A stretch of DNA of 43,285 nucleotides from a virus. Both the position numbers and the translations under genes were made by a program. Shown here piece by piece: positions 2,309-22,030 of this stretch; positions within the stretch are counted from its first letter, which is position 1; each line of letters opens with the position of its first letter. Under the pieces are notes generated by a model that made no database searches, had not been told where the DNA came from, and saw nothing but the letters and a program-made list of their open reading frames with translations. The stretch spans positions 1 to 43,285 of IMG/VR virus record IMGVR_UViG_3300033388_003324. The stretch is one strand, 5' to 3'.

Positions 2309-4059
<1,751 letters not shown>

Positions 4060-4076
<17 letters not shown>

Positions 4077-4587
4077 GTATAGCCTCTTCGTTTGCCTGTT
4101 TGACTTCTTCGGATTCTACGTCTACCGCTTCTACTTCAGGCGCCAGTAGCTTCATTCTGTCTTCAATGTCAATAGCTGTATGTTTAATCTCTCCGGTATG
4201 CTCCACCGTAGCGTCTACCTTAATCTGCTTCGGGGGTTCTAGCCCGTATAGCTGCATCAGCTTAGAAGACGCTGACACCATTACCGCCGTGTGCCCTTTC
4301 TCCAACGCCATCTCGTACGCCTCCTGCAGATCAGTAGCGATATCTTCAACATCAACTCCGCTTTTTCGTTTGAGCCTGTACTGCGCGCGTTTAAGATAGC
4401 GCTGAACTTCTGGGGTCTTTAATAGAGCGGAACCATAACCTTCAGAGAAGCCACTGTCCCGCGCGGCCTTTTGAGCATCGAACCCATTCCGCAACCAGGT
4501 ATACGCGAACTTCTCACGTCTTATCGCCACTTCCGGTGTAGCAGGAACTAATAAAATGAATCCATTTTCACCACAGTTCTCACTCAT
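4060..4587 (-). CDS. terS: Terminase small subunit
   Basis: A 175-residue protein. The N-terminal third has the DNA-binding helical pattern of small terminases: FAYTWLRNGFDAQKAARDSGFSEGYGSALLKTPEVQRYLKR, that is, an Ala-rich helix, a GFS turn and LLxxPEV. This is followed by a long helical region for oligomerisation and an acidic C-terminus (VEAVDVESEEVKQANEE) that may contact the large subunit. The subunit recognises the packaging site and loads the DNA on the motor. It starts in a TAATG overlap with the upstream lysis gene and overlaps TerL downstream. The position immediately before TerL is the strongest support. Confidence 0.85.
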
Positions 4588-5048
4588 TAATCACAGTACT
4601 TTCTATAGTTTTTTACATATTCTTCCGTCGTGCCTCTACCTCCGGCGGTATTATAATATCGTTTCCAATATTCAGCCTGATCGTAAATATCTTTCGGAAT
4701 AGCCCCAGGTTTTCTTAAGTAATGTACTCTCGCCATTGTTATAGAATATAAAAGATTAGTTTCCATAGACAACGGGTCCGGACGCGTTACTCCGGTCTCA
4801 ATTATTATCTGAGTTCTTAAATCAAACCGGTGCTTCAGGTAATTCTCCCAAATACATCTCTCAGTTTCTGGCTCCATCTGAAAAGGGCCCTTAGCGGGGC
4901 CCCCGCCAAGCTGAGTAAGATACGTACCGAAAGCCGATTCCTGGGCTGCAGTACCAAGAAGGAGTTGTGTGGCTTCCGGTGAATAGGCGTCGATACCATT
5001 GAGCACTCTCGTTATTAGTTTTTTAAAATGGGTCTTATTATACGACAT
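4587..5048 (-). CDS. Endolysin, lysozyme/transglycosylase-like
   Basis: A 153-residue soluble protein without a signal peptide. LLLGTAAQESAFGTYL holds a candidate catalytic glutamate (E37), followed by GGGPAKGPFQMEPET. That is the E-x(n)-GPFQ(M) arrangement of phage peptidoglycan hydrolases with a lysozyme-like or SLT fold. The enzyme would cleave the glycan backbone at lysis. It is the third gene from the start of the late operon, behind a single-TM holin candidate and a small basic gene, and ends in a TAATG overlap with terS. RBS CAGGAG is placed 6 bases upstream. Lacking a signal, it depends on a holin for access to the cell wall. Confidence 0.8.
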   Translation of the reverse strand: MSYNKTHFKKLITRVLNGIDAYSPEATQLLLGTAAQESAFGTYLTQLGGGPAKGPFQMEPETERCIWENYLKHRFDLRTQIIIETGVTRPDPLSMETNLLYSITMARVHYLRKPGAIPKDIYDQAEYWKRYYNTAGGRGTTEEYVKNYRKYCD

Positions 5049-5050
5049 TC

Positions 5051-5350
5051 TTACTCCTGGGGGGATTTCCGTCTGGGTTTTAGTTTTGGCGCTTTCGGAC
5101 CACCGTCACGCGCGAAAACTTTCCGTATCAACATCCGACTCTTAAGTACTATTGAATTTGGAAGTCGGGCCGTTAGTGGGGACCCGATAGGTTTTAGGTC
5201 TTCGTACTCCTTCTCAATCTCGTTCATAATACGCACAAACTTCCGCTGCCATCTCTTAGGCATGTCCTCTAACAAAGCTCTCGGGAGTATTATCCAACGT
5301 CTCTTGTCTTGACCAAACCACTCTTCTAATATTGTCGGTTTAACTGGCAT
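5051..5350 (-). CDS. Small basic protein of the lysis cluster, unknown function
   Basis: A 99-residue protein rich in Lys/Arg at its end (KAPKLKPRRKSP). No transmembrane segment, lipobox or enzyme motif is visible. Its stop codon is 2 bases from the endolysin start and its own start is a TAATG overlap with the holin candidate, so it is co-translated with the lysis genes. The sequence has a central helical charged stretch (RWQRKFVRIMNEIEKEYEDLKP). It could be a regulator of lysis or an unrelated virion gene. I see nothing that makes it a spanin, because there is neither a TM helix nor a lipoprotein signal. Confidence 0.6.
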   Translation of the reverse strand: MPVKPTILEEWFGQDKRRWIILPRALLEDMPKRWQRKFVRIMNEIEKEYEDLKPIGSPLTARLPNSIVLKSRMLIRKVFARDGGPKAPKLKPRRKSPQE

Positions 5351-5772
5351 TATCCGCTCCCTCCGACTTTAATAAACTGCTTAACTGCATACCATAATGT
5401 AGCGCCAATACCACTCATCACAGCGCCAACAGTTGTGATCACCATACAAATAACAAAGGCCGTCGAAACTTTATCGCTTCGCAGCCTCTGTTTTGTCAAC
5501 CACTTCTGGTTCTCGTTATTTACTTCCAGATATTCCGCCAGTTTGCCCTCATGCCTTTTACTTAAAAGACTATAATACTCCCCGATAAGGGCCGCATCCT
5601 CTTTCCGCAATCCGATAAACTGGCATCTGAGGGGGTGACGGTTTAACTCCTCGTTTACAGCTTTGTGTACTATTAACGGAAGCTCCTGCTTTACCGACTC
5701 GCTTATTATATTAGATAAATCCTTACGCCATTCAGGATCCTTTAACAAGTCTTTCATAGTTTCAACTGTCAT
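5350..5772 (-). CDS. Holin/membrane protein candidate, one C-terminal TM segment
   Basis: A 140-residue protein. Residues 1-100 are hydrophilic and helical; residues about 104-130 (from STAFVICMVITT to ATLWYAV) form one convincing membrane helix, followed by a short tail. The position directly upstream of the endolysin cluster suggests a role in membrane disruption, but holins usually have a shorter soluble part, so this could instead be an inner-membrane regulator or an antiholin-like protein. It is the first gene of the leftward late unit. There is no strong Shine-Dalgarno sequence before the ATG at 5772; an alternative ATG five codons later is also possible. Confidence 0.55.
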   Translation of the reverse strand: MTVETMKDLLKDPEWRKDLSNIISESVKQELPLIVHKAVNEELNRHPLRCQFIGLRKEDAALIGEYYSLLSKRHEGKLAEYLEVNNENQKWLTKQRLRSDKVSTAFVICMVITTVGAVMSGIGATLWYAVKQFIKVGGSG

Positions 5773-5805
5773 CGTGTAACCCGTATATCGTTAGCATTTA
5801 AACCT

Positions 5806-5834
5806 CGAGTACCATATAGAGCGGGTCCTGTCAA
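5806..5834 (-). promoter_or_regulatory. Candidate late promoter facing left
   Basis: Read on the minus strand, a perfect TTGACA lies at 5834-5829. A spacing of 17 bases leads to TACTCG (5811-5806), a poor -10 element; TATATG lies closer than a normal spacer allows. Start of transcription would fall near 5799, about 27 bases ahead of the first late gene. The weak -10 would fit a promoter needing an activator. This is the only promoter-like sequence I found for the whole leftward block. Confidence 0.35.
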
Positions 5835-5852
5835 GCGCTATGTCCTAAATAA

Positions 5853-5900
5853 ATGTAAACTGACAAATTTGCCTGTTTACATAAATTTGTCAGTTTACAT
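5853..5900. repeat. 18-bp perfect inverted repeat, candidate operator
   Basis: Arms at 5853-5870 (ATGTAAACTGACAAATTT) and 5883-5900 (its exact reverse complement) flank a 12-base loop. The loop itself holds a further GTTTACAT, identical to the end of the right arm. The motif GTTTAC thus occurs at 5875, 5893 and 5936, and inverted at 5855. It sits just upstream of the leftward promoter candidate, suggesting a protein-binding site for repression or replication initiation. As RNA it would form a strong AU-rich hairpin without a U-tract, so a terminator is less likely. Confidence 0.75.
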
Positions 5901-5927
5901 ATTAGGGGTTCTTATTTACTCAATAGT

Positions 5928-5946
5928 TGTAAGTAGTTTACTTACA
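5928..5946. repeat. 8-bp inverted repeat TGTAAGTA/TACTTACA
   Basis: Two perfect 8-base arms are separated by GTT. The element shares its GTTTAC core with the larger inverted repeat 28 bases to the left and may be a second binding site for the same protein. It is followed directly by the AT-only tract 5951-5973. Confidence 0.55.
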
Positions 5947-6108
5947 CTGTTTATAAAAATTTTTAAAATTTTTCCGGAAGGTACTAAGAAAAAAAGTTTG
6001 AGATCTTGTAGAAGGTTTATTTTCATTATTCTTCATTTTATAAAAAGGGGTTCTCGTTATATAGGATCTTGTTTCAACGCTTCTTGTATCTGACTAGCAT
6101 GGTACAGC

Positions 6109-6167
6109 CAACGACAACAGCAACAGCAACAGCATAGATAAGATGGATTAAAACAACAGCATGATAT
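6109..6167. repeat. Direct repeat, copy 1 (59 bases)
   Basis: The unit runs from CAACGACAACAGCAACAG to GCATGATAT and includes CATAGATAAGATGG and ATTAAAACAACAG. Copy 2 follows after five bases. Copy 1 has one extra CAACAG hexamer; otherwise the copies are identical. CAACAG micro-repeats explain the length difference by slippage. Iteron-like use in replication initiation is possible but not shown. Confidence 0.85.
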
Positions 6168-6172
6168 ACCAT

Positions 6173-6225
6173 CAACGACAACAGCAACAGCATAGATAAG
6201 ATGGATTAAAACAACAGCATGATAT
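6173..6225. repeat. Direct repeat, copy 2 (53 bases)
   Basis: This copy is identical to copy 1 apart from the absence of one CAACAG hexamer. Perfect identity over more than 50 non-coding bases in a fast-evolving genome points to a recent duplication or to selection. Confidence 0.85.
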
Positions 6226-6264
6226 TAACAGCAGGTATGCACAAGCTATTCGCTCGTGTATATC

Positions 6265-6433
6265 TGAGGCGGCGCAGCCGCCAAGGCGCAAAAGCGCCAG
6301 GCGGAAAGCGTCAGGATCTTGACGATTAGATAGATTTAGTTCGTCTTCGTTATGGTAAGTATTTGAGGCATTTTAACCAAGCGCTCATGCGCCTGGCGCA
6401 AGGCGCAAAAGTATAGCGGTGTATGTGTACACC
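6265..6433. other. GC-rich hairpin cluster
   Basis: Local stems are GGCGGC-GCA-GCCGCC (6268-6282), GGCGC-AAAA-GCGCC (6285-6298), GCGCC-T-GGCGC (6389-6399) and GGTGTA-TGTG-TACACC (6418-6433). In addition, 6294-6303 is the exact reverse complement of 6390-6399, and TGAGGCGGCG at 6265-6274 is complementary to 6644-6653. Alternative local and long-range foldings are therefore both possible. The GC-rich island stands out from its AT-rich surroundings. Confidence 0.6.
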
Positions 6434-6524
6434 GTACACCCTATAGAAGGAAAAACACGTTTTGAGGCGGTTCAATTTATTATTCTGATATTCGCTGAAG
6501 CATCAGACACTTAACCTACAACCC

Positions 6525-6591
6525 ATGAGCATAATTTTCTATTGTCATGAAAAGACAAGAAAATTGCAGGGTCACGCCTTTTTATGCTCAT
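6525..6591. other. Two-tier stem-loop
   Basis: Outer arms ATGAGCATAA (6525-6534) and TTATGCTCAT (6582-6591) are perfectly complementary. Inside, AATTTTCT-AT-TGTC (6533-6546) pairs with GACAAGAAAATT (6554-6565), leaving a two-base bulge and a 7-base loop. A 16-base single-stranded stretch remains on the 3-prime side. The inner and outer stems share two bases, so they compete slightly. It has no trailing U-run, arguing against a simple terminator. A smaller imperfect hairpin follows (GTTTTCAG 6658-6665 with CTGAAAC 6670-6676). Confidence 0.6.
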
Positions 6592-6749
6592 AACTCACAG
6601 CATAACATATTGATTGCACTTCATTTACCGGAACAAAAGCGGCCGCCGCCTCACGCTGTTTTCAGCATTCTGAAACTGTGTAGCCTGGTTTATTAATCAT
6701 TTATTATGTATTTATTTTACTTATGCGCCATTATTATTAAAGTTTTTAC

Positions 6750-6777
6750 TTGCATTATCCGATAAGTATATTATAAT
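6750..6777 (+). promoter_or_regulatory. Early promoter, sigma70-like, facing right
   Basis: TTGCAT (6750-6755), a 16-base spacer, and a perfect TATAAT (6772-6777). Transcription would begin near 6784, 35 bases before the first early gene. It is the best sigma70 match in the control region and is the natural driver of the early small-gene block. Confidence 0.7.
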
Positions 6778-6818
6778 AAGAAGTATAGAACATTAAACCT
6801 AAACAGGAGTAGAATACT

Positions 6819-7199
6819 ATGACAAAAAAGATTGAAAACATAACAGACTTTTTGCAGTGGGCGAAACAGGTTAACCTTTGCTTTTCATCCAAGGGCATGC
6901 CGGACCTCCAGGATGAATTCGCACGAACAGACAGAAAAGTACTACAGGATATATTTATCGGTGCAGAGCAGAACGATCGGCGATTGTTATTATTTGGCAT
7001 TTATAAAGCTATGTCAGATGATGTTTTTTTTGATTATATTAATCATGTTGTAAATAATAAGGTTAATAAAATAGCTGAACAGTTAGAGCTTGAAATATCT
7101 AACAGGTGGACGGAAATTAAAACAGAACAGATTGCCCTGGATGAAACAAAAGAACAGATAAATAACCACATGCAGGCGATTATAAATATATGTAAGTAG
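6819..7199 (+). CDS. First early protein, unknown function
   Basis: A 126-residue, mainly helical protein; the last 50 residues (NKIAEQLELEISNRWTEIKTEQIALDETKEQINNHMQ) look like a coiled coil. No motif is recognised. RBS AGGAG is placed 9 bases before the ATG, and the strong promoter TTGCAT/TATAAT lies directly upstream, so this would be the most strongly and earliest expressed phage protein. Genes in this position often act on host functions; that is only inference. It is followed by a structured repeat element. Confidence 0.7.
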   Translation: MTKKIENITDFLQWAKQVNLCFSSKGMPDLQDEFARTDRKVLQDIFIGAEQNDRRLLLFGIYKAMSDDVFFDYINHVVNNKVNKIAEQLELEISNRWTEIKTEQIALDETKEQINNHMQAIINICK

Positions 7200-7207
7200 A
7201 CAGCAAG

Positions 7208-7273
7208 AACAGTCTGAAGGCTCCAGGCGCAAACCCTGGAGCTTTCAAGCGGTTTTTAATGTAGTCTAACGAT
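7208..7273 (+). repeat. Structured intergenic element A
   Basis: A 66-base unit shared with 7512-7577 at 61 of 66 positions. It contains a hairpin with 8-bp stem GCTCCAGG/CCTGGAGC and loop CGCAAAC (7220-7242), followed by CAAGCGGTTTTTAATGTAGT and TAACGAT. The T-stretch lies about 10 bases after the stem, too far for a classical terminator but compatible with an RNA processing or translation-control leader. It sits between two early genes, 20 bases before the next ATG. Confidence 0.75.
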
Positions 7274-7293
7274 CAATTTTAAAAGGTGATGAT

Positions 7294-7497: not shown

Positions 7498-7511
7498 ATA
7501 ATAACATACCG

Positions 7512-7577
7512 AACAGTTTGAGAGCTCCAGGCGCAAACCTTGGAGCTTTCAAGCGGTTTTTAATGTAGTATAACGAT
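7512..7577 (+). repeat. Structured intergenic element B
   Basis: Second copy of the 66-base element. Of the five differences from copy A, the stem change (C to T on the 3-prime arm) turns a G-C pair into a G-U pair, so AGCTCCAGG/CCTTGGAGCT (7523-7547) still folds. The loop CGCAAA and the downstream GCGGTTTTTAATGTAGT are unchanged. Retained pairing suggests selection on the RNA structure, though two copies are little evidence. Confidence 0.75.
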
Positions 7578-7601
7578 AACCAAAAAAGGAGATCAACAAA
7601 A

Positions 7602-7796
7602 ATGAAACGATTAAAGACAACCAGAAACGATAAAGCCAGGCTTGCTAAGCTCTACAGGCAATACACAAACAGCTTTTCAACTGTTTCAGATTTTGCTAAA
7701 TCCATCGGATGCACTGAGGACCAGGCGAACCTCATAATCTCCAACGGTAAGAAATACCACGACGCAAAACCTCCGGCAGAAAGGGAGAAAAACTAA
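7602..7796 (+). CDS. Small HTH-like protein, paralogue of the 10936 gene
   Basis: A 64-residue protein. The segment YRQYTNSFSTVSDFAKSIGC, followed by TEDQANLIISNGKK, resembles helix-turn-helix proteins in which a leading helix is followed by FAxxxGI and an EAxxII helix. The 52-residue protein encoded at 10936-11094 aligns over this stretch with Y, Y, N, F, T, S, FA, A, II and G conserved. DNA binding is therefore plausible but unproven. A strong RBS (AAGGAG) precedes it. Its TAA stop is followed without gap by the ATG of a 28-residue membrane peptide. Confidence 0.65.
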   Translation: MKRLKTTRNDKARLAKLYRQYTNSFSTVSDFAKSIGCTEDQANLIISNGKKYHDAKPPAEREKN

Positions 7797-7896: not shown

Positions 7897-8277
7897 ATGT
7901 TCGCAAAAAACACAACGATAAACGAGCTTGAAAAAGTATTGGCAGAAGTGGCAAAGAAATATAATAATAATCTTATCTTTAACCGGATAGAGCAAACAGG
8001 GCGAAGGGTATTATTTACTCTCAGGGTCAAAGACTCAAGCGGATCCGGTGCCAGGGTGTCGAACTCCGGGCGCAAAATGATCTCCGCCTGTTGGCATTGC
8101 CACGGGGATTTCTTTGACGAACTGTTAAAACAAAATCCAAAATCTGAAATTCTATCGCTTGGCAACAAAAGGATCTATAAAGATTCAGACGGTGCGACGA
8201 TAGGAAACTGGGAAGATATTTCCTGCGGCTCTCAAATGTACCCATCGTATATGTCCGAGCTTTGCAACTGCAATTAA
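7897..8277 (+). CDS. Conserved phage-type protein, unknown function (126 aa)
   Basis: A 126-residue protein with a predicted alpha/beta character. The middle and C-terminal parts hold the features WHCHGDFFDELL and ISCGSQMYPSYMSELCNCN, familiar from phage hypothetical proteins of this length that I cannot attach to a function. The Cys/His spacing (CWHCH, then C..., CNC) may bind a metal. RBS AAGGAG lies 9 bases before the ATG. It is followed by a long hairpin element at 8286. Confidence 0.65.
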   Translation: MFAKNTTINELEKVLAEVAKKYNNNLIFNRIEQTGRRVLFTLRVKDSSGSGARVSNSGRKMISACWHCHGDFFDELLKQNPKSEILSLGNKRIYKDSDGATIGNWEDISCGSQMYPSYMSELCNCN

Positions 8278-8285
8278 ATTATTAC

Positions 8286-8348
8286 CAGGCATACAACCCG
8301 GAGCAAATCCCTGGAAGTTAGGATATACTCAATCGGTTTGTATGCCTG
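8286..8348 (+). other. Structured intergenic element C
   Basis: An 11-bp perfect stem CAGGCATACAA/TTGTATGCCTG encloses 41 bases. An alternative stem CCAGG (8285-8289) with CCTGG (8310-8314) uses the same left arm and brackets GCAAA, as in elements A and B. The two folds exclude each other, as in an attenuator. It ends in TTGTTTAATGTAGTTTAA, matching the tail of A and B, about 40 bases before the next ATG. Confidence 0.6.
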
Positions 8349-8391
8349 ATTAGTTGTTTAATGTAGTTTAATTTAATATGAGGTGTATGTT

Positions 8392-8508
8392 ATGAGTAAA
8401 AGAATTATAACAATAGAATATGATGAATATGATATTGAAATAACCGATATTATTATAAAAATAAGTAATAGTAATAATATTAAAATAATAAGTGATAAAT
8501 ATAAATAA
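8392..8508 (+). CDS. 38-residue early peptide
   Basis: A short frame rich in Ile, Asp and Lys with alternating hydrophobic residues (RIITIEYDEYDIEITDIIIKI), suggesting beta strands. RBS GAGGTG lies 7-8 bases before the ATG. It is flanked by structured elements C and D. No family recognised. The low-complexity codon composition (ATA, AAT and GAT rich) means it could be a chance frame, but the RBS and cassette-like setting favour expression. Confidence 0.5.
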   Translation: MSKRIITIEYDEYDIEITDIIIKISNSNNIKIISDKYK

Positions 8509-8514
8509 CAATTT

Positions 8515-8535
8515 AGCACCTGTCAGAGGGGTGCT
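8515..8535 (+). other. Structured intergenic element D (short hairpin)
   Basis: A 6-bp stem AGCACC/GGTGCT with a 9-base loop. It is followed by TTCTTTAATGATAAC, similar to the tail of the other elements, and then the RBS of the next gene. Confidence 0.45.
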
Positions 8536-8574
8536 TGATGGTTCTTTAATGATAACTTTATAAGGAGAATGGGC

Positions 8575-8745
8575 ATGAGAATACAATATCTTGAAACATT
8601 CCAAACAATAGACCGGTGCGTGGATTATCTAGTAAATATCGGCTGCAAATGGTCATATGAAAAAGAATGTGAGTTAAATAAAAATAGTTGTTTCACGTTT
8701 AAGAAAACACTTGTACTTTACGATAAGTATAATATTTTAGATTAA
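8575..8745 (+). CDS. 56-residue early protein, unknown function
   Basis: Begins MRIQYLETFQTIDRCVDYLV and has three cysteines (RCVDYL, IGCKWSYEKEC) plus one later. No recognised domain. AAGGAG is placed 8 bases before the ATG. It lies between hairpin elements D and E. The composition is that of a small folded protein rather than a random frame. Confidence 0.55.
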   Translation: MRIQYLETFQTIDRCVDYLVNIGCKWSYEKECELNKNSCFTFKKTLVLYDKYNILD

Positions 8746-8755
8746 ATAATCAATT

Positions 8756-8790
8756 TAATGTTACCAGGGATATGAGACCTGATAACATTA
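8756..8790 (+). other. Structured intergenic element E
   Basis: Stem TAATGTTA-C-CAGG pairs with CCTG-A-TAACATTA around a 9-base loop, with one C/A mismatch. It is followed by GTTGTTTAACGATGTTTAATTTAA, again the tail seen in the other elements, then RBS AGGAGG and the next ATG. Confidence 0.6.
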
Positions 8791-8834
8791 CATGGTTGTT
8801 TAACGATGTTTAATTTAATAGGAGGTATCCGGCT

Positions 8835-9095
8835 ATGATTTATAAAAAAGAGATAACAATAAGAAAAACAATTTTTGTTGAACCGGACAATATACCTGAT
8901 TTACCCAGGGGCACAATTTTTGCAAACACCAAACCAACGCACAAAAACGCTAAAATCTTACACGACGGCGGCCTGGACTTTAGAACTGAAACCCTAAACG
9001 GCTTAAAAACAATAGAGCAATTACAAAAAGAAAACAAGTTTTTAATATTATATAAAGGTCTTAAATATCGGTACGCATACACAATTAATATATAA
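8835..9095 (+). CDS. Early protein, unknown function (86 aa)
   Basis: An 86-residue basic protein, N-terminus MIYKKEITIRKTIFVEPDN with alternating hydrophobics, C-terminus LKYRYAYTINI. No family recognised. It is the last gene preceded by a hairpin-type leader (RBS AGGAGG). Its stop codon is part of the first copy of the repeated boundary motif TAACTTACGGAG. Confidence 0.6.
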   Translation: MIYKKEITIRKTIFVEPDNIPDLPRGTIFANTKPTHKNAKILHDGGLDFRTETLNGLKTIEQLQKENKFLILYKGLKYRYAYTINI

Positions 9096-9125
9096 CTTAC
9101 GGAGTATTTAAAGGAGATAACCGCC

Positions 9126-9326
9126 ATGAGAAAAAGTCTTTTAAACGATAACAATATAATGTTCCTGGGGGGCTATTATAGATATGTTTCTCATTTATAT
9201 CAGTTAGCGTCTACCGGATGGAAAGCCAAAAGTAAATTGCTCTCCGGCAGGGATATTATCAGGACCGATAAAAGCGCGCTTATTATAATGAATAAAAGAT
9301 ATAGAGCGTTTTTTAATTGTAGATAA
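9126..9326 (+). CDS. Early protein, unknown function (66 aa)
   Basis: A 66-residue basic protein (LASTGWKAKSKLLSGRDIIR, then KRYRAFFNCR at the end). No recognised motif. It has two potential ribosome sites: the boundary motif 22 bases upstream and a better placed AAAGGAG. The high Lys/Arg content would permit nucleic-acid binding; no more can be said. Confidence 0.55.
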   Translation: MRKSLLNDNNIMFLGGYYRYVSHLYQLASTGWKAKSKLLSGRDIIRTDKSALIIMNKRYRAFFNCR

Positions 9327-9352
9327 TAGCCATTAACAAGAGAGGTGATATT

Positions 9353-9547
9353 ATGAAAAGATGGGATGATATGAAAGTTAAGCCGAAGTTAAATTATAAG
9401 CTTTATACAACAGAACTGAAACTTGACTCAACTAAAATATATAAAGCGGAAATAGCAACCAATCAGCCGGACTTTGAAAAACAAGGGCTAATATTTGTAA
9501 ATGAAATCCTTTTAAACAAAGATGAATATATAATAATCGAATCTTAA
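9353..9547 (+). CDS. Early protein, unknown function (64 aa)
   Basis: A 64-residue protein with alternating polar and hydrophobic residues (YKLYTTELKLDSTKIYKAEIA), ending NKDEYIIIES, suggesting a small beta-rich fold. RBS GAGAGGTG precedes the ATG. No family recognised. It sits in the run of short early genes between two boundary motifs. Confidence 0.55.
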   Translation: MKRWDDMKVKPKLNYKLYTTELKLDSTKIYKAEIATNQPDFEKQGLIFVNEILLNKDEYIIIES

Positions 9548-9576
9548 TGTTAATGTTAACTTACGGAGGTAAAAAC

Positions 9577-9663
9577 ATGGAAACGATCATAATCGCAGTA
9601 GGGACGCTTACATCCTGGGCAGTAGTTATGCTAATGATTTTTAAATTTTATCTATTAACTTAA
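9577..9663 (+). CDS. 28-residue membrane peptide (second)
   Basis: Starts 8 bases after a full boundary motif with GGAGG. The peptide is almost entirely one hydrophobic span (METIIIAVGTLTSWAVVMLM then IFKFYLLT). Its stop codon TAA is embedded in the next boundary motif (AACTTAAGGAGG), which serves the following gene. The same length and design as the peptide at 7797, without clear sequence similarity, suggests two single-span membrane effectors. Confidence 0.6.
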   Translation: METIIIAVGTLTSWAVVMLMIFKFYLLT

Positions 9664-9673
9664 GGAGGAAAAA

Positions 9674-9856
9674 ATGACAAAAACCGAAGCGTTATCTAAA
9701 TTGATAAAAACTAAAGATTTAACGACAGACTTACTTAAACCTTTAAATATCAGATTTTCAAGTTTTTTAGACTTTTGTCAACTGGACACCGAAAGAAGAA
9801 AAGATATAGTTGAAGATTTAATTGAAGATTTAATTGACCGATTAAATAATGAATAA
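9674..9856 (+). CDS. Early protein, unknown function (60 aa)
   Basis: A 60-residue helical protein with an acidic repeat at the C-terminus (VEDLIEDLIDRLNNE). No family recognised. It starts 6 bases after GGAGG of a boundary-motif copy. The small, acidic, helical character is common among phage inhibitors of host enzymes, but there is no specific evidence. Confidence 0.55.
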   Translation: MTKTEALSKLIKTKDLTTDLLKPLNIRFSSFLDFCQLDTERRKDIVEDLIEDLIDRLNNE

Positions 9857-9881
9857 ACCATTAACTTAAGGAGGAAAAACC

Positions 9882-10319
9882 ATGCCAAAATACCGAGTGA
9901 TACTATCGCAAGAAGTAGAAGCCAACGACGAACAAAACGCAGAAGAAAAAACCCTTTATAACCTGAGAAACTCCTATCTTGAAAACCCTCCAGATATAGA
10001 AGTTGAAAAAGTCCTTAATGATATTGAAATACCTTTCGAATGGACACGAGTAAACAGCGATATAAACGGAAACCCCAGACACGTTGTCCATTTTCTTGAG
10101 CTTATCCGAGTGCTTAAACACTTTGATAAATGGACAGACAACCCAAGCCCATTTCACAGACTCAAAGGCGATTACGAATATATCTGTAAACTTGCCAATA
10201 AACTTGGCGGCCGAAAATTCCACAACAAACAGTACGGCGGCGGGATTGTTTTTCAGACATACAGCACCGATTGCACCGAAAAATTCATCAAAGAGAATTT
10301 ACATAAACACGTTAAATAA
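9882..10319 (+). CDS. Early protein, unknown function (145 aa)
   Basis: The N-terminus YRVILSQEVEANDEQNAEEKTLYNLR resembles the short beta-alpha unit with a VEANdEeeA turn found in many phage and mobile-element hypotheticals. The C-terminal part (CKLANKLGGRKFHNKQYGGGIVFQTYS) has a Gly-rich turn between basic residues. No catalytic motif. The boundary motif variant CTTAAGGAGG gives its RBS, and its TAA stop forms part of the next boundary motif. Confidence 0.65.
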   Translation: MPKYRVILSQEVEANDEQNAEEKTLYNLRNSYLENPPDIEVEKVLNDIEIPFEWTRVNSDINGNPRHVVHFLELIRVLKHFDKWTDNPSPFHRLKGDYEYICKLANKLGGRKFHNKQYGGGIVFQTYSTDCTEKFIKENLHKHVK

Positions 10320-10338
10320 CTTACGGAGGAAAAAACAC

Positions 10339-10920
10339 ATGCATAAAATAACAAGAGAATATGAAGTATACCCTTACGAAGAGTTATCAGACGAAGCAAA
10401 AGAGACAGTCCGAAACAGCTTCGGAGAAGACTCACAATTTGAAACGGAATGCTTACCAGAATATTTTTCCGAACAACTCAAAGAAAAATATCCTTATTTT
10501 TCAGGAGCGGAATTTATATGGTCCTGCTCCAGTTGTCAAGGCGACGGCCTGAGCTTTTCATGTGATATCGACCTGACTGAATTTATCAAAGCAGAATTCC
10601 CAGATATGAAAACCTCAATCGCAGACACCCTTACCAATGAACTTTCTGTATCATCGACAGGTAATCAAGGACGGTATACCTATTGTTCTGAAAGTAATAT
10701 CGCAGTATCCTGCCTTCCCTTTGGGGATCATCCAAAATTAGAAGAAAAAATATGTGAAGTGGTTCAAGCCGTTAAAGAAAAATACACGGACGTTTGTCAC
10801 GAATTTTTCGTATATGCGGAAAACGCATATCAATTTCTATACACGGACGAATACGCAAAAGATATATGCGGCGCAAACGAATACACTTTTTTATCAACTG
10901 GAGAGATGTTTAACTATTAA
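10339..10920 (+). CDS. Conserved phage-type protein, unknown function (193 aa)
   Basis: Starts at the ATG 10 bases after GGAGG; longer readings would run inside the preceding gene in another frame. The N-terminus YEVYPYEELSDEAKETVRN and the segment WSCSSCQGDGLSFSCDIDL are typical of a widespread phage family in which a 'fdELsdeAke' helix precedes a 'CSCQGDGasF' segment. The function is unknown to me; four closely spaced cysteines suggest metal binding. Both ends are joined to neighbours by boundary motifs. Confidence 0.7.
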   Translation: MHKITREYEVYPYEELSDEAKETVRNSFGEDSQFETECLPEYFSEQLKEKYPYFSGAEFIWSCSSCQGDGLSFSCDIDLTEFIKAEFPDMKTSIADTLTNELSVSSTGNQGRYTYCSESNIAVSCLPFGDHPKLEEKICEVVQAVKEKYTDVCHEFFVYAENAYQFLYTDEYAKDICGANEYTFLSTGEMFNY

Positions 10921-10935
10921 CTTACGGAGGTTATT

Positions 10936-11094
10936 GTGACCAGGGACGAAACCGAAAAAATGTATCTTGATTACGTTAATAATTTTCTAACGCTTTCCGC
11001 TTTCGCAGAGCATTACAAGATATCACTTACTGAAGCTTACTATATCATCGAAGAAGGCCGAGAAATACGAGCGCATAATAAAAGATATCGATAA
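10936..11094 (+). CDS. Small HTH-like protein, paralogue of the 7602 gene
   Basis: A 52-residue protein starting at GTG 6 bases after the boundary motif GGAGG. MYLDYVNNFLTLSAFAEHYK is followed by ISLTEAYYIIEEGREIR. This matches the pattern of small helix-turn-helix proteins with FAexyxIs and EAxxIIeeGr, and aligns with residues 16-53 of the protein from 7602. DNA binding is likely by pattern; a target is unknown. It is the last gene before the degenerate stretch and promoter at 11173. Confidence 0.65.
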   Translation: MTRDETEKMYLDYVNNFLTLSAFAEHYKISLTEAYYIIEEGREIRAHNKRYR

Positions 11095-11315
11095 ATTAGC
11101 TATTAACTTACGGAGTATTTTACGGGGGAAAAATGCGTAAAATCGCAGGCGAAAAATAATTTGAGATTTATCTTGACATGACATGCCATTTAATGATAAT
11201 AACGATATCAACATTTAACTTACGGAGTAATAGGACGGAAAAATCGCAGGTGAAAAACTAAAACTAAAACCTAATTAATTAATAAACAAAGCCCCGCTCA
11301 TGGAAAAGAGGCAAT
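11095..11315 (+). other. Gene-poor stretch with promoter and boundary-motif relics
   Basis: Two boundary motifs (11105 and 11217) are each followed by near-identical AAAATCGCAGGyGAAAAA segments, but the first gives only an 8-codon frame (MRKIAGEK) and the second has no ATG. Between them lies a promoter almost identical to that at 14765. The arrangement looks like remnants of lost small-gene cassettes or leader sequences kept for regulation. Confidence 0.55.
11173..11200 (+). promoter_or_regulatory. Middle promoter P1 with operator-like spacer
   Basis: TTGACA (11173-11178), 16-base spacer, GATAAT (11195-11200). Thirty of 33 bases from TCTTGACA to ATAATAAC match the promoter at 14765. The spacer carries TGACATGACATGCCA, holding a CATG core related to the palindrome GACATGTC of the second promoter. 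It would transcribe the genes from 11316 onward. Confidence 0.75.
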
Positions 11316-11504
11316 ATGGAACATATACTGTTTATGAATGACGCTCCTATAGCTGTCGTTAAAGGTGATGATGAATATCGTCGTGAGGTTCTTGACGCAA
11401 AAATGCTTGAACATTACGACGCAGCAGGCCGTAGGGATTTTAAGGGATATAGAAGATCTGTTTACTGGCACTATCGTGCCGTGGAGGTGATACATGCTAA
11501 ATAA
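11316..11504 (+). CDS. Small protein, unknown function (62 aa)
   Basis: A 62-residue protein with a charged centre (KGDDEYRREVLDAKMLEHYD) and a basic, aromatic C-terminal half (GYRRSVYWHYRAV). AGAGG lies 4 bases before the ATG. The last 11 bases overlap the start of the DUF1353-like gene, indicating translational coupling. First gene behind promoter P1. No family recognised. Confidence 0.55.
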   Translation: MEHILFMNDAPIAVVKGDDEYRREVLDAKMLEHYDAAGRRDFKGYRRSVYWHYRAVEVIHAK

Positions 11505-11901
11505 AAGAACCATAATAGAACTTGGGCATATAACTTACGAGGTCCGGAAAGAGAAGTATAAGTATCTGATGCTAAAGGGTTACGGGGTCTATACGAATAT
11601 ACATCCGGCTGAAAGGATCAACCATAGCTACTATACCCTTTGGGAAGACGGGTACTTGATCATACGCCCAGGGTATGCCTGGAATGGGGCGGACGTAATA
11701 CCGGATCGAGACGCAGTTATCAGATCGTCCCTGGTGCATGACATAATGTGTCAGCTTTACAGATCCGGTTTACTTGACTCATCATACATCTCTTTTTTCA
11801 ATGATCTGTTCATAACCATGAGTGAAGAGGATGGTTTAAACGGGTTCTTATGCGGGGCTTATCGGAAGATACTCCGTCTAAGATGGAGGATAAGAGGGTA
11901 A
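11494..11901 (+). CDS. DUF1353-like protein
   Basis: A 135-residue protein. The core YYTLWEDGYLIIRPGYAWNGADVIPDRDAVIRSSLVHDIMCQL has the signature of DUF1353-like phage proteins: a beta-strand, 'pgYaWNGas', then 'RaSlvHDalYqL', with a conserved His-Asp pair that looks catalytic or metal-binding. The biochemical role of the family is not established. GGAGGTG precedes the ATG. The C-terminus is rich in Arg. It lies in the middle region under the inferred control of P1. Confidence 0.7.
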   Translation: MLNKRTIIELGHITYEVRKEKYKYLMLKGYGVYTNIHPAERINHSYYTLWEDGYLIIRPGYAWNGADVIPDRDAVIRSSLVHDIMCQLYRSGLLDSSYISFFNDLFITMSEEDGLNGFLCGAYRKILRLRWRIRG

Positions 11902-11930
11902 ATATCAATTTAAAATAGATTGGAGGATGA

Positions 11931-12323
11931 ATGATAAATAATATACAAGATAAGTACAAAAAACAAACAGGTGGAAAAGCATTATACAGAAAAGATGCAT
12001 CTGATTATCATACGCTTAAATATGTCAAATGGCTTGAGCAAGAACTATCCAAAGACAGTGAGATGCTTAATGAAAGCGACATTAAACATTTAAAATGGAT
12101 GTATGGACGAATGAGAACTGCCCACAACGAACCCCCGAACATTGATTATATGTTAAGGTTTAGAAAAATACTAAACAAGCTCGATTTAACCTCAGCCATG
12201 AAACAGCAGGCAGATACACAAAAAACTCTGTGTGAGCATGATTGGATTCCCACAAGATGGATTATGGTATGTGAAAAATGTAAACTAGCCTCTAAAATAA
12301 TAACCAAAACCATGAAAGGGTAA
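11931..12323 (+). CDS. Zinc-ribbon-ended protein, unknown function (130 aa)
   Basis: A 130-residue protein. The first half includes YHTLKYVKWLEQEL, a pattern seen at the start of phage early proteins, and the C-terminus has CEHDW followed after 10 residues by CEKC, a likely single zinc-binding site. GGAGG lies 5 bases before the ATG at 11931 (an ATG 4 bases earlier is out of frame and stops at once). The last 19 coding bases before the stop recur exactly as a non-coding leader at 12989. Confidence 0.6.
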   Translation: MINNIQDKYKKQTGGKALYRKDASDYHTLKYVKWLEQELSKDSEMLNESDIKHLKWMYGRMRTAHNEPPNIDYMLRFRKILNKLDLTSAMKQQADTQKTLCEHDWIPTRWIMVCEKCKLASKIITKTMKG

Positions 12324-12326
12324 GTT

Positions 12327-12638
12327 GTGGATAAAATACAACTAGCAAAGTTTTTTCATAAAACATATGAGGATTTAGCAACGGGGTTTTTCTATAAAAC
12401 AAGGGAAGATACAAAAGAGTTTAACCCTAATTCTGCCAACGGTAAACTTATGATTGCTACTTGTGGAGCAGTTTTGGAAGAACTATCCAAACAGAGCAAA
12501 GACAGTGAGATACTTGATTGGATAGATGAAAATGTTATTTCTATTGGTTTGAGTGCTTATGACCAATATAATGTCTGTGAAAGAACAATATACATACAAA
12601 CAGACTTAGACAACATACGAGACTTACTAAAGCAATGA
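12327..12638 (+). CDS. Protein of unknown function (103 aa)
   Basis: Starts at GTG four bases after the preceding stop, with AAAGGG upstream. A 103-residue, mainly helical, acidic protein (CGAVLEELSKQSKDSEILDWIDENV). The string SKDSE recurs in the preceding gene's product (LSKDSEM), perhaps by chance. No domain recognised. Its stop TGA is inside the leader AATGAAAGGCGGTAACTG of the next gene. Confidence 0.6.
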   Translation: MDKIQLAKFFHKTYEDLATGFFYKTREDTKEFNPNSANGKLMIATCGAVLEELSKQSKDSEILDWIDENVISIGLSAYDQYNVCERTIYIQTDLDNIRDLLKQ

Positions 12639-12651
12639 AAGGCGGTAACTG

Positions 12652-12810
12652 ATGTTCGATGTAGCATGGGTGAAAAGGTGGTTAGTAAGTAGGTGGCATT
12701 CTTCGAGGCTGTTCCATAGGTACCTGAGGATAGTAGCCTTTGAGGAGCGCAGTAAAGAAGTAAATTTTATGGTGGGACCAGGGTCCAAAAAAGAGGCTAA
12801 AGACACCTAA
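12652..12810 (+). CDS. Small basic protein (52 aa)
   Basis: A 52-residue protein rich in Trp, Arg and Phe in the first half (VAWVKRWLVSRWHSSRLFHRYLR), which would form an amphipathic basic helix able to bind membrane or nucleic acid. The leader AATGAAAGGCGGTAACTGATG is almost the same as the leader of the following gene, which argues for real translation. Too short for family assignment. Confidence 0.5.
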   Translation: MFDVAWVKRWLVSRWHSSRLFHRYLRIVAFEERSKEVNFMVGPGSKKEAKDT

Positions 12811-12829
12811 CCAAAATGAAAGGCGGTGA

Positions 12830-12991
12830 ATGATGATAGTTTCCACATATGATCCAAAAGACGCAAAAGCAACTTGTCCAAAATGTGGGTTTGTTGACTG
12901 TGAACTGCTCGAAGCATTTTTAATTTATCCCCCTAAACGTCTTAAATTTTATCACAAAGACTGCCAAACAACTTGGGAAATATATGTATAA
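12830..12991 (+). CDS. Zinc-ribbon miniprotein (53 aa)
   Basis: Residues CPKCGFVDC near position 16-24 and HKDCQ near 42-46 form a four-ligand zinc-ribbon-like pattern. Two adjacent ATG codons are possible starts; the first fits the duplicated leader (AATGAAAGGCGGTGAATGATG). The stop is followed directly by the 19-base repeat TAACCAAAACCATGAAAGG. Small zinc ribbons in early phage regions often bind host proteins or nucleic acids; no target is visible. Confidence 0.6.
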   Translation: MMIVSTYDPKDAKATCPKCGFVDCELLEAFLIYPPKRLKFYHKDCQTTWEIYV

Positions 12992-13015
12992 CCAAAACCA
13001 TGAAAGGAACAAAAA

Positions 13016-13321
13016 ATGAAGATTAGAATAGGAATATTACTTACACTCATAACAATGTTAGCCGGATTCTATATATGGATCGGTGAAAAAGAATCCCTGT
13101 ACGCAAGAGCGGAAGATCTAACCATCACAAAAACCACGCAGACAATTCATTTACTTGACCATGAACTCGGCATAATAAAAGGCAGGGTTTGGGATCTGGA
13201 ATGGGAAAGCAAAAACCGAGAGCTTACCAAAAAGGAAACCCTCGTGCTAAAGGAAGGGCTGCAGCGGATGGAAGAGATAACGCTGATGAAAAGCAAATAC
13301 TTAGATAAGGTGGTTAAGTAG
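13016..13321 (+). CDS. Membrane-anchored coiled-coil protein (101 aa)
   Basis: The N-terminus MKIRIGILLTLITMLAGFYIW is a single membrane anchor or uncleaved signal, followed by about 75 charged helical residues (IHLLDHELGIIKGRVWDLEW onward) likely to form a coiled coil. The architecture resembles an i-spanin, but the gene is far from the lysis genes and has no overlapping lipoprotein gene, so spanin function is doubtful. RBS AAAGG is 8 bases before the ATG. Its TAG stop is directly followed by the next ATG. Confidence 0.6.
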   Translation: MKIRIGILLTLITMLAGFYIWIGEKESLYARAEDLTITKTTQTIHLLDHELGIIKGRVWDLEWESKNRELTKKETLVLKEGLQRMEEITLMKSKYLDKVVK

Positions 13322-13702
13322 ATGCTTTCAAAAGAAGAAGTCGCAGCAAGACAACATAGATATTACCTCAATAACAGAGAGGAAAGAATATATAAAGCTA
13401 ACATAAGAGCGGATATTTGGCGTAAACTAAATCCCAAAAAAATCGCAAAAATACAACGCCGCACCTATCTCAAAAACAAAGAGGACAGAATAGCCAAAGC
13501 CACAAAAAGGAATAAAAAACAGGCAGCGGAATTGCAGGATCGTTATATTCGTGTACTCTTATCAAAAAACACAGCACTTTTATCCGAAGATATCCCACAG
13601 GCTCTTGTCGAACTGAAACGAGAGGAGCTTAAACTAATCCGTTTAATTAAAAGGGAGAAAGACAATGGAAAAAAACACCAAAGCACCAAAAACAGCAACT
13701 GA
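13322..13702 (+). CDS. Basic phage protein, unknown function (126 aa)
   Basis: A very Lys/Arg-rich 126-residue protein. The first half has YYLNNREERIYKANIRADIW and similar 'nrEeriak' repeats, as in DNA-binding linkers of HNH proteins, but no nuclease centre. The C-terminus ELQDRYIRVLLSKNTALLSE, followed by DIPQALVELKREELKLIRLIK, matches a common phage helical module ('lkdrYVrkll... ipqelielKReqLkLkRlik'). Function unknown. It overlaps the next gene by 38 bases. Confidence 0.65.
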   Translation: MLSKEEVAARQHRYYLNNREERIYKANIRADIWRKLNPKKIAKIQRRTYLKNKEDRIAKATKRNKKQAAELQDRYIRVLLSKNTALLSEDIPQALVELKREELKLIRLIKREKDNGKKHQSTKNSN

Positions 13703-13874
13703 ATTAAGAGAGCATCTTTGTGAAACTTTTAACGAGCTCCAGACCGGAATTATCAATGTTAAAGTAGCATGTGAGATGTCAAACATGGCAGGGAAGATAA
13801 CCACTACCATTAAAATGCAACTGGAATATGCCAAATTGCGTAAGGAAAAACCCGAGATACCTTTTTTGAAATAG
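13665..13874 (+). CDS. Conserved phage-type small protein (69 aa)
   Basis: A 69-residue protein. 'TELREHLCETFNELQTGIIN' and 'ACEMSNMAGKITTTIKMQLEYAKLRKEKPEIPFL' match a frequent phage family I remember with a 'tl.dLRe.L...f..lr.G.i....A.e..N.AGKii...K.qLeya.lr.e.P.I.FL' pattern. It has no known biochemical function and is usually found near replication genes and nuclease genes, as here. The start lies inside the previous gene behind AAAGGGAG. Confidence 0.7.
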   Translation: MEKNTKAPKTATELREHLCETFNELQTGIINVKVACEMSNMAGKITTTIKMQLEYAKLRKEKPEIPFLK

Positions 13875-13886
13875 CGGAGTAAATAA

Positions 13887-14240
13887 ATGTCACTAAGAAC
13901 AACCATGACTAAAAACTACCTTGACAAAAAAGGCATCCCGAACGGATTAGTAGAGCGGTATGTCATGCAAGCCAGGAAGAAGTTCGATCTGTTTGGTATC
14001 ATCGACATCATCGCTCTGTATCCGGAAGGTGTATGCGGCATTCAGGTATGCGGCTCAGATTGGCAGGAACACATCAAAAAAATAAGCGGGAGCGAGTATA
14101 AGGATCTATGGCTCAACACTCCAGGGACGCTCCTGGAACTCTGGGGATGGCGGAAACTTAAACTAAAACGGGGGGGTGCTGCTGTTAGGTGGACCCCCAG
14201 AATAAAACGGTTCAGGTTATTGGACGAAATATTAAATTAA
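13887..14240 (+). CDS. VRR-NUC/Holliday-resolvase-like nuclease
   Basis: A 117-residue protein. The pattern R4-TT-, E23-R, KKFDLFGIIDII (D34, D40), GIQVCGSDW (Q53) and a C-terminal LLELWGWRKL is that of small phage PD-(D/E)XK-type nucleases, in which DLFGf.Dila supplies the metal ligand and iQvc replaces the usual E-x-K strand. It would cut branched or flap DNA during replication or packaging. The position shortly before an SNF2 helicase is typical, since VRR-NUC and SNF2 genes often neighbour each other in phages. The Gln at the third motif is an oddity but normal for this subfamily. Confidence 0.7.
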   Translation: MSLRTTMTKNYLDKKGIPNGLVERYVMQARKKFDLFGIIDIIALYPEGVCGIQVCGSDWQEHIKKISGSEYKDLWLNTPGTLLELWGWRKLKLKRGGAAVRWTPRIKRFRLLDEILN

Positions 14241-14255
14241 CTTACGGAGGATAAA

Positions 14256-14622: not shown

Positions 14623-14768
14623 TGGGAAAACCTAAACCTGAAATGGTGAGTGTAACCATCCGATTACCCAAGGCTTTAGTTGAAATTATCGACGCGGATG
14701 CTGATATGGAAGATCGGGACAGAACAAAACAGATAGCGAAAATATTAAAAGATAAATATATGTCTTGA
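14622..14768 (+). CDS. Ribbon-helix-helix transcriptional regulator (CopG/Arc type)
   Basis: A 48-residue protein. VSVTIRLPKALVEIIDADAD gives the beta-strand with alternating residues that enter the DNA major groove, followed by helix 1; then DRDRTKQIAKILKDKYM gives helix 2. This is the complete RHH fold; dimers bind short palindromes. AAGGAG lies in the previous gene. The stop codon TGA is part of the TTGACA of the next promoter, whose spacer holds GACATGTC, so binding there and at the related promoter 11173 is likely (inference). It would regulate the replication operon and the middle genes. Confidence 0.8.
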   Translation: MGKPKPEMVSVTIRLPKALVEIIDADADMEDRDRTKQIAKILKDKYMS

Positions 14769-14792
14769 CAAGACATGTCATTCAATGATAAT
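14765..14792 (+). promoter_or_regulatory. Replication-operon promoter P2 with palindromic operator
   Basis: TTGACA (14765-14770), 16-base spacer, GATAAT (14787-14792). The spacer contains the perfect 8-base palindrome GACATGTC (14772-14779), well placed for a repressor to block polymerase. It differs from P1 (11173) at 3 of 33 bases. It lies 27 bases before the first gene of the replication block, and its -35 box overlaps the stop codon of the RHH gene. Confidence 0.78.
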
Positions 14793-14818
14793 AACATATT
14801 TCATTTAAAGGAGGCGTT

Positions 14819-19831: not shown

Positions 19832-22030
19832 ATGCCAACAAAGATACCGGATCGTCCTGTTGAGAGGGTGGAGTACGCCCTCGATATCCACGGTCTCAAG
19901 ATATTCCCTGTTAAAGGTTGTGGATCGAAAGACCCACAAACAGGAGGTTTAAAAGATAAAACCCCTACCGTTACCGGATGGAGCGAATGGGCGGAGAAGA
20001 CAAAAAGAAGAAAGATCACTGATTACGCCAAATCAAATAGAGCTACAAATTGGGGTGTTCATACAGGGCATTCCGGAATAGTTATAATAGATGTAGATGT
20101 CAAACACGGGAAAGACGGACGGATAGCGTTACTCGCTTTGTGTACTGAGAGAGGTCAGAAATTAGATCCTACACTCACGGTTAAAACTCCATCCGGAGGA
20201 ATCCATTATTATTATAAACTTCCTGGAGGGAAACACGTAACTGGAGGTGTCAATAAACTTGGGGAAGGTGTTGACGTTCAAGCCGGTGGTAAATATGCCC
20301 TGATGTATGGGTCTCGTATAGAGACAGGAAAAACATTTGACGGTAAAGAGCAAACCGGTGGAACGTATGAAGTAATATCAGAAGCAGACGATATCAAACC
20401 TATCCCTATATGGCTGCTCCAGGAACTGCAATCTCCTAACGGCGACAAACCACAAGAAATACTCGGTAAGAAACCAACGCCAAAGATCGAAGGTATAGAC
20501 AGCGAAGAGAACATAGAGAAAGCGACTCTTTGGCTAACGGATGAAGCACCGCCTTGCGTTGAGGGTAGCGAACGTGGTGGTGAGTATCTGCTCCAAATCT
20601 TTTATAAGCTTCGTGATATGGGCATCAGTAAAGATACCGCGGACGTATTAACGTGTGACCACTACAATGAGCGCTGCGAACCTCCGTGGTACACCGCTGA
20701 TGATGGCGTTGATAAGATCCATTGGTACGCAAAACTAAAGAACGCTTACAACTACGCACAAAACGAAAACATAGGAGCAGAAACCCATGAAGCACGATTA
20801 CTTGAAGCGAAAGACGAATTTAAAGACTACGACAAACAAAACCCTCCTCCACCTCTTGAATACGAACGCTCTATTCCTTTACATGATTTCGTCGGGGACC
20901 CCCCAAAAAGAGAATGGCTTATACCGAATTGGTTGCCTCTCAATGAAATCTCGTCTTTGTACGGGGCGGGCGGTGCGGGGAAATCATTACTGGCTCTCCA
21001 AATGGCGATGTCAGTATCAACGGGCAATCCCTTTCTCGGACTTGCTATACCTAATAAGATACCTTCTCTTGTGGTGTTCTGCGAAGACAGTAAAGACGAA
21101 CTGCACCGAAGAATAACAGCGGTAAGGGCCGCGCCTGAATACACTTTCGTCGAAGCGCAGGAGCATATGCCTTTGCGCTTATGGCCCAGAGTTGGTAAGA
21201 CAAATGATATAGCCAGGACAAGTAACTCAGGAAACGATATCGTCGATGGTCCTTTTAAAAAGATACTTGAGAAAGAACTATCTCTTATGCCGGAAGGTAA
21301 CAAACTTTTAATTCTCGATACGCTATCTGATGTGTATATGGGCGATGAAAATGTCAGGGAAAAAGTTAATAAATTTGTAAAGACTCACCTAGGTGGTTTG
21401 GTAATTAAGCATAGTTTAACAGTTCTTATCCTGGCGCATCCATCACGTACAGGACAGAACACAAAGGATATGCTCTCCGGATCTACAGCGTGGAACAACG
21501 CGGTTCGAAACCGGTTAGTTCTCATGCAATATAAGAAAGAACCCGACACAATGGTGTTTGTAAGGATGAAATCAAATTACGCCAAGCAGGGAGAAGAGAT
21601 ATTTTTGCAGTGGAGAGACGGAAGGTTCGAGCTAAGACCCGCTGATCCTAACAGAAAAATAGAGTTAGCCGCAGATGATCTTGATCTACTCACTCTGGTA
21701 AGAAGAGACTTTTCCACTACGGGAACGTATTCCTTAGCTATGTTATCGCGTAAGCTTATAAGCGATCAGCGCAATAGCCATTTAATGTTAGGTCAATCTC
21801 CCGAAACTGTTGTAAGAAAACTTATGAGAATATTCAGATACCGCAGAACTGTTAACGGACTAAGTTATTATTATGCCGAAGGAGATATCTACGGCAAGCA
21901 AGGCCGCAGATGGTTGGTGATACGACCCGCAGAAGAGACAGAAGCGCAGGGGGATAAACAGCTTAAACAGTTAGGCGCTCCGGATTTAGTCGGGGAAGAA
22001 AAACTTAAAGCGTCGGGGATATGGGGATGA
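19832..22030 (+). CDS. Primase-helicase (AEP prim-pol fused to RecA-like ATPase)
   Basis: A 732-residue protein. Residues ~5-200 form an archaeo-eukaryotic prim-pol domain: ALDIHGLKIFPVKG, the metal-binding VIIDVDVKHG (D87, D89), and TPSGGIHYYY with the catalytic His. Residues ~345-610 form a RecA-like helicase: Walker A GAGGAGKS (K384), Walker B LLILDTLSD (D496), then ILAHPSRTGQ and SGSTAWNNAVRNRLVL. The C-terminal ~100 residues are likely a winged-helix region. It would unwind DNA and prime synthesis at the fork. AGGAGG before the ATG. It ends in an ATGA overlap with the following gene. Confidence 0.9.
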   Translation: MPTKIPDRPVERVEYALDIHGLKIFPVKGCGSKDPQTGGLKDKTPTVTGWSEWAEKTKRRKITDYAKSNRATNWGVHTGHSGIVIIDVDVKHGKDGRIALLALCTERGQKLDPTLTVKTPSGGIHYYYKLPGGKHVTGGVNKLGEGVDVQAGGKYALMYGSRIETGKTFDGKEQTGGTYEVISEADDIKPIPIWLLQELQSPNGDKPQEILGKKPTPKIEGIDSEENIEKATLWLTDEAPPCVEGSERGGEYLLQIFYKLRDMGISKDTADVLTCDHYNERCEPPWYTADDGVDKIHWYAKLKNAYNYAQNENIGAETHEARLLEAKDEFKDYDKQNPPPPLEYERSIPLHDFVGDPPKREWLIPNWLPLNEISSLYGAGGAGKSLLALQMAMSVSTGNPFLGLAIPNKIPSLVVFCEDSKDELHRRITAVRAAPEYTFVEAQEHMPLRLWPRVGKTNDIARTSNSGNDIVDGPFKKILEKELSLMPEGNKLLILDTLSDVYMGDENVREKVNKFVKTHLGGLVIKHSLTVLILAHPSRTGQNTKDMLSGSTAWNNAVRNRLVLMQYKKEPDTMVFVRMKSNYAKQGEEIFLQWRDGRFELRPADPNRKIELAADDLDLLTLVRRDFSTTGTYSLAMLSRKLISDQRNSHLMLGQSPETVVRKLMRIFRYRRTVNGLSYYYAEGDIYGKQGRRWLVIRPAEETEAQGDKQLKQLGAPDLVGEEKLKASGIWG

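Follow-up and report, generated by a model that had tools for sequence, protein, structure and literature searches.

The phage genome and its largest non-coding gap

The window, that is, the whole stretch of DNA analysed, is a single virus record of 43,285 bases given as one strand, and its gene set is that of a podovirus of about 43 kb. The leftward genes constitute the late operon and comprise an epsilon15-like portal, terminase, major head protein, tail proteins and internal virion proteins. The rightward genes constitute the early operon and include a SNF2-type helicase, an exonuclease, an SSB-like protein, a Prim-Pol/RecA-like helicase and a family A polymerase. A small early protein encoded at 7602-7796 has a weak HTH-like match. 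Both operons are separated only by the block described here, the largest non-coding gap of the window, flanked by the first late gene (5350-5772, minus) on its left and the first early gene (6819-7199, plus) on its right, with terS and terL just leftward. The best relatives are around 60% identical in the large terminase, with lower values elsewhere, and no close relative of the phage was identified among the collections searched. The contig is not a closed genome because its first bases cut into an ORF (1-279, minus), and the genome is therefore incomplete between the portal and protease genes. By eye, this truncated ORF resembles a beta-helix tail protein.

The elements of the block and the candidate initiator gene are the following (strand given where one was assigned):

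5773-6818: divergent intergenic control region of 1046 nt, between predicted genes 5350-5772 (minus) and 6819-7199 (plus)
5829-5834, minus: perfect TTGACA read from the sequence, possible -35 of a leftward late promoter with a weak -10
5853-5870/5883-5900: arms of a perfect 18-bp inverted repeat
5928-5946: operator-like 8-bp palindrome TGTAAGTA-GTT-TACTTACA (arms 5928-5935/5939-5946)
5950-5973: A+T-only tract of 24 nt read from the sequence, candidate unwinding element
6115-6167/6173-6225, plus: two 53-nt direct repeats (96%, 58-bp spacing) with CAACAGCA units
6232-6266, plus: 13-bp hairpin with two G.U pairs in the plus sense (z -6.6 on plus, -4.1 on minus)
6265-6653: three copies of TGAGGCGG (6265 plus, 6463 plus, 6646 minus), the only ones in the window
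6268-6298: two GC-rich hairpins, GGCGGC-GCA-GCCGCC and GGCGC-AAAA-GCGCC
6417-6434: perfect hairpin CGGTGTA-TGTG-TACACCG
6525-6591: two-tier stem-loop with a 10-bp outer stem and an inner stem
6750-6777, plus: TTGCAT-16-TATAAT read from the sequence, likely early promoter before gene 6819
19832-22030, plus: Prim-Pol/RecA-like helicase, candidate initiator (PF09250, 8.5e-25; PF13481, 6.3e-30)

Repeats and folding of the block

The arms and loop of the inverted repeat at 5853-5900 hold three copies of a TTTGTCAGTTTACAT-type site of 15-18 bp (two plus, one minus), being a candidate operator or initiator-binding site. Seven of the eight window copies of CAACAGCA are inside the block, and the three copies of TGAGGCGG compare with 0.81 expected (2 of 100 shuffles). 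These short sites (three, seven and three copies) could be candidate iterons, which the initiator may bind. Nowhere else in the 43 kb do repeated 9-mers cluster as densely as in the block.

The null for inverted repeats was formed by 1000 dinucleotide shuffles of the block. Local perfect inverted repeats of at least 10 bp numbered 2 versus 0.05 expected (P=0.003), those of at least 8 bp with a short loop 4 versus 0.28, and none of the 1000 shuffles contained one of at least 16 bp. The 18-bp inverted repeat, the local palindromes, the 53-nt direct repeat and the local folding are far beyond chance. A previous sequence-only reading had listed the 18-bp and 8-bp inverted repeats, the AT-only tract, the near-identical direct repeats, the GC-rich hairpins and the two-tier stem-loop, and all of them are present. 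It had also listed two long-range 10-bp complementarities, 6265/6644 (the outer two copies of TGAGGCGG) and 6294/6390. Both exist in the sequence but are near chance, with 2 long-range inverted repeats of at least 10 bp observed versus 0.35 expected, and they are weak evidence because this value is borderline (P=0.045).

Folding is concentrated in the right half of the block (6226-6720), with z of -4.93 on the plus and -4.96 on the minus strand; the left half (5900-6230) presented no excess (z=+0.3). Two windows stand out in the fold scan of the whole window: 6181-6300 in the block, the second most structured of 720 windows of 120 nt, and 7501-7620, which is an early-gene spacer hairpin.

Four early-gene spacers (7207-7290, 7511-7600, 8289-8385 and 8753-8830) contain a long hairpin, a TTTAATGTAGTxTAA-like string (TTTAACGATGTTTAA in the fourth) and then the next ribosome site. 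Stem differences between the first two copies mostly keep the pairing, and the four hairpins are a candidate attenuator or processing element. Other elements of the early region are a 38-nt repeat (87%) at 11166-11203 and 14758-14795, corresponding to a sigma70-like promoter TTGACA-16-GATAAT with an inner palindrome, and CTTACGGAG, a putative extended ribosome-binding motif identified seven times in 9096-14249, usually with a stop codon just before it and a start codon after it.

Searches for a coding or RNA identity

The earlier statement that no reading frame accounts for the block holds, its ORFs lacking a clear Shine-Dalgarno and having codon scores that are unremarkable or low. Neither tRNA nor DnaA boxes were identified in the block, and it has no match among the known RNA families of Rfam, including GOLLD. 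DNA homologues of the block were absent from 50,697 phage records and from a set of 235 loci. A pattern scan of IMG/VR with the inverted repeat arms gave no match; the scan with a 20-mer of the direct repeat gave two, discarded as coding DNA of two near-identical unrelated contigs.

The sequence-only reading had offered a structured non-coding RNA, a replication origin, or both. If taken as a discrete phage transcript some 430-480 nt long (6226-6700), with the 6265/6644 helix closing it, the first is unlikely, and a discrete RNA gene in the block is not supported. The folding is significant and the G.U pairs make the 6232-6266 hairpin better as plus-strand RNA, but 6370-6445 and 6515-6600 fold better as minus-strand RNA, and the z of about -4.9 is equal on both strands and therefore singles out no transcript. 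The closing helix belongs to the near-chance long-range pairs, Rfam gives no match, and a homologue was found in none of about 250 loci. Promoter and terminator are both absent: no sigma70-like promoter was reported at 5970-6740 on either strand, and no plus-strand terminator appears before 7215, so none closes a plus-strand transcript, with the reservation that the host may use another promoter consensus. Slightly less probable still is a new, large phage RNA transcribed from 6226-6700 and folded so as to take part in replication too, for instance as a primer or initiator-binding RNA.

Comparable blocks in relatives encoding a Prim-Pol

The comparison of blocks covered L092 and the five genomes encoding Prim-Pol relatives of the window protein (L119, L099, L013, L117 and L045). 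A search for Prim-Pol in 28 further records gave a clear match in L045 only. In all five, short repeats cluster in a non-coding stretch that also holds a strong hairpin:

L119, 8776-9012, upstream of terminase: TGAGAGGT repeats and a two-tier hairpin (8955-9012)
L099, 8080-8296, upstream of terminase: AATA[CG]GGACA repeats which themselves form a hairpin (8225-8295)
L013, 3045-3363, 3' of Prim-Pol: ATACGGACA repeats and hairpins
L117, 8170-8600, 3' of Prim-Pol: repeats and a hairpin
L045, 1500-1690, 3' of Prim-Pol: CGGAGCTTC repeats (1500-1660) and hairpins

In repeat density the block ranks first in L119, L117 and L045 (directly behind Prim-Pol in the last), among the highest in L099 and around fifth in L013. 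The genes flanking the three blocks located 3' of Prim-Pol run in one direction. L092 presents a comparable block, and its partial contig yielded no Prim-Pol. In L099 a repeat cluster at 3951-4450 is denser than the control block of that genome.

It was in L119, L099 and L092 that the pattern first emerged. L117 was inspected again for a stronger cluster, and its initial candidate (4840-4975) was replaced post hoc by the cluster at 8101-8650, 3' of Prim-Pol. L045 is the only genome inspected after the expectation had been formed, and it agreed with it. Control blocks rich in repeats may be a general feature of such phages, with or without Prim-Pol.

In the tree of six Prim-Pol proteins, L099 and L013 are supported sisters (100/99) joined by the window protein (98/97); the L117 and L119 proteins are mutual best matches (37%) and form no resolved clade. 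The two sisters share AATA[CG]GGACA, with 8 of 8 exact matches in both genomes within the blocks. GTGAGAGGTNTCTGMGAGGT is common to L117 and L119; when up to 3 mismatches are allowed, their 20-nt repeat occurs 3 and 5 times, versus at most 0.01 expected, though their blocks sit in different places. Motif sharing thus appears consistent with a link to Prim-Pol, in two pairs only. The repeats of the window block are its own, unlike the motif of the sisters, whose PWM is not clustered in the block (rank 382 of 4317), and this counts against a simple link between motif and Prim-Pol.

Interpretation of the block

The block is best explained, with a probability of roughly 0.55, as a divergent promoter and operator region that is also a probable Prim-Pol-dependent origin. 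As a control region it is unusual in size and of known kind, combining palindromic sites, an AT tract, repeats and hairpins between leftward late and rightward early operons. The palindromes at 5853-5946 would act as operators or initiator sites adjoining the late promoter, the AT tract (5950-5973) would unwind, and the repeats and GC-rich hairpins (those at 5853-5900, 6232-6298 and 6525-6591, and the others within 6115-6653) may let the Prim-Pol/helicase load and prime, a step modelled on the role proposed for the pRN1 stem-loop. The early genes would be transcribed from their own promoter near 6750.

An origin is supported by the largest non-coding gap, the densest repeat cluster and structure beyond chance; by a genome that encodes a Prim-Pol/RecA-like helicase, a family A polymerase and an SSB-like protein; and, as judged from sequence comparison, by the blocks of the Prim-Pol-encoding relatives. 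Against it are the 13 kb between block and Prim-Pol gene, the missing DnaA boxes, the unclustered sister motif, the L092 block despite no Prim-Pol found on that partial contig, and the 53-nt repeat, which may be a recent duplication without function. The GC-skew check suggested earlier does not help the origin: the sign flips at the block, yet this carries no information, since gene direction switches at the same place and skew within the block is close to zero, and the argument was dropped as confounded.

A purely transcriptional role, with divergent promoters, repressor or activator operators at 5853-5946 and replication starting elsewhere, is possible though clearly less probable, the repeats and hairpins then being leader, terminator or neutral debris. 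It agrees with the position between divergent operons, with operator-like palindromes adjoining TTGACA and the AT tract, and with the strong hairpins of other early spacers; however, it does not need some 800 bp of repeats and hairpins, and the L013, L117 and L045 blocks sit 3' of Prim-Pol between genes of the same direction. A packaging or terminus region (pac/cos or terminal repeat) adjoining the terminase genes is very improbable: terS/terL are next to the block and the terminase gene of Carin1 has 80 bp of upstream sequence before its record ends, but the contig, which is not closed, continues through the block. N4-like hairpin promoters for a virion RNA polymerase were rejected, the 2124-aa virion protein matching no polymerase.

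The general pattern in Prim-Pol phages is a more interesting lead than the single block. The suggested rule is that each of these phages has a block of repeats and hairpins specific to it, placed beside Prim-Pol or where early and late genes part, and that phages whose Prim-Pol proteins are alike can have the repeat motif in common. Should this hold, the sequence could be used to find the origins of many uncultured phages.

Comparison with known origins

To our knowledge, the origins of Prim-Pol-encoding phages have barely been mapped. The window Prim-Pol protein contains only the Prim-Pol and AAA_25 domains of Pfam, and its gene abuts the next gene. The Prim-Pol plasmid pRN1 (ORF904) requires a stem-loop of about 100 nt, kept in structure with low sequence conservation, and the same study describes similar stem-loops from some bacteriophages (PMC4234260). 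Shared with the window are a Prim-Pol replication protein in the same replicon (PF09250, E 8.5e-25) and a non-coding stem-loop region with structure but no sequence conservation. The pRN1 protein has an SF3 helicase and a winged helix, whereas that of the window is RecA-like (AAA_25); the pRN1 stem-loop is directly 3' of the replication gene, which is not so in the window, and is a single element in contrast to several stems and repeats. The pRN1-like placement was identified in L013, L117 and L045.

The passages of the NrS-1 report considered here (PMC7102993) describe a phage PrimPol with a helicase domain, likewise proposed to start at specific genome sites, which primes at an 8-nt template site present in two copies per genome; they describe no hairpin block. 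The PLE/RepA origin (PMC8263062) also has iterons in a non-coding region and varies between related elements along with the initiator, although this initiator, RepA_N, belongs to another protein family.
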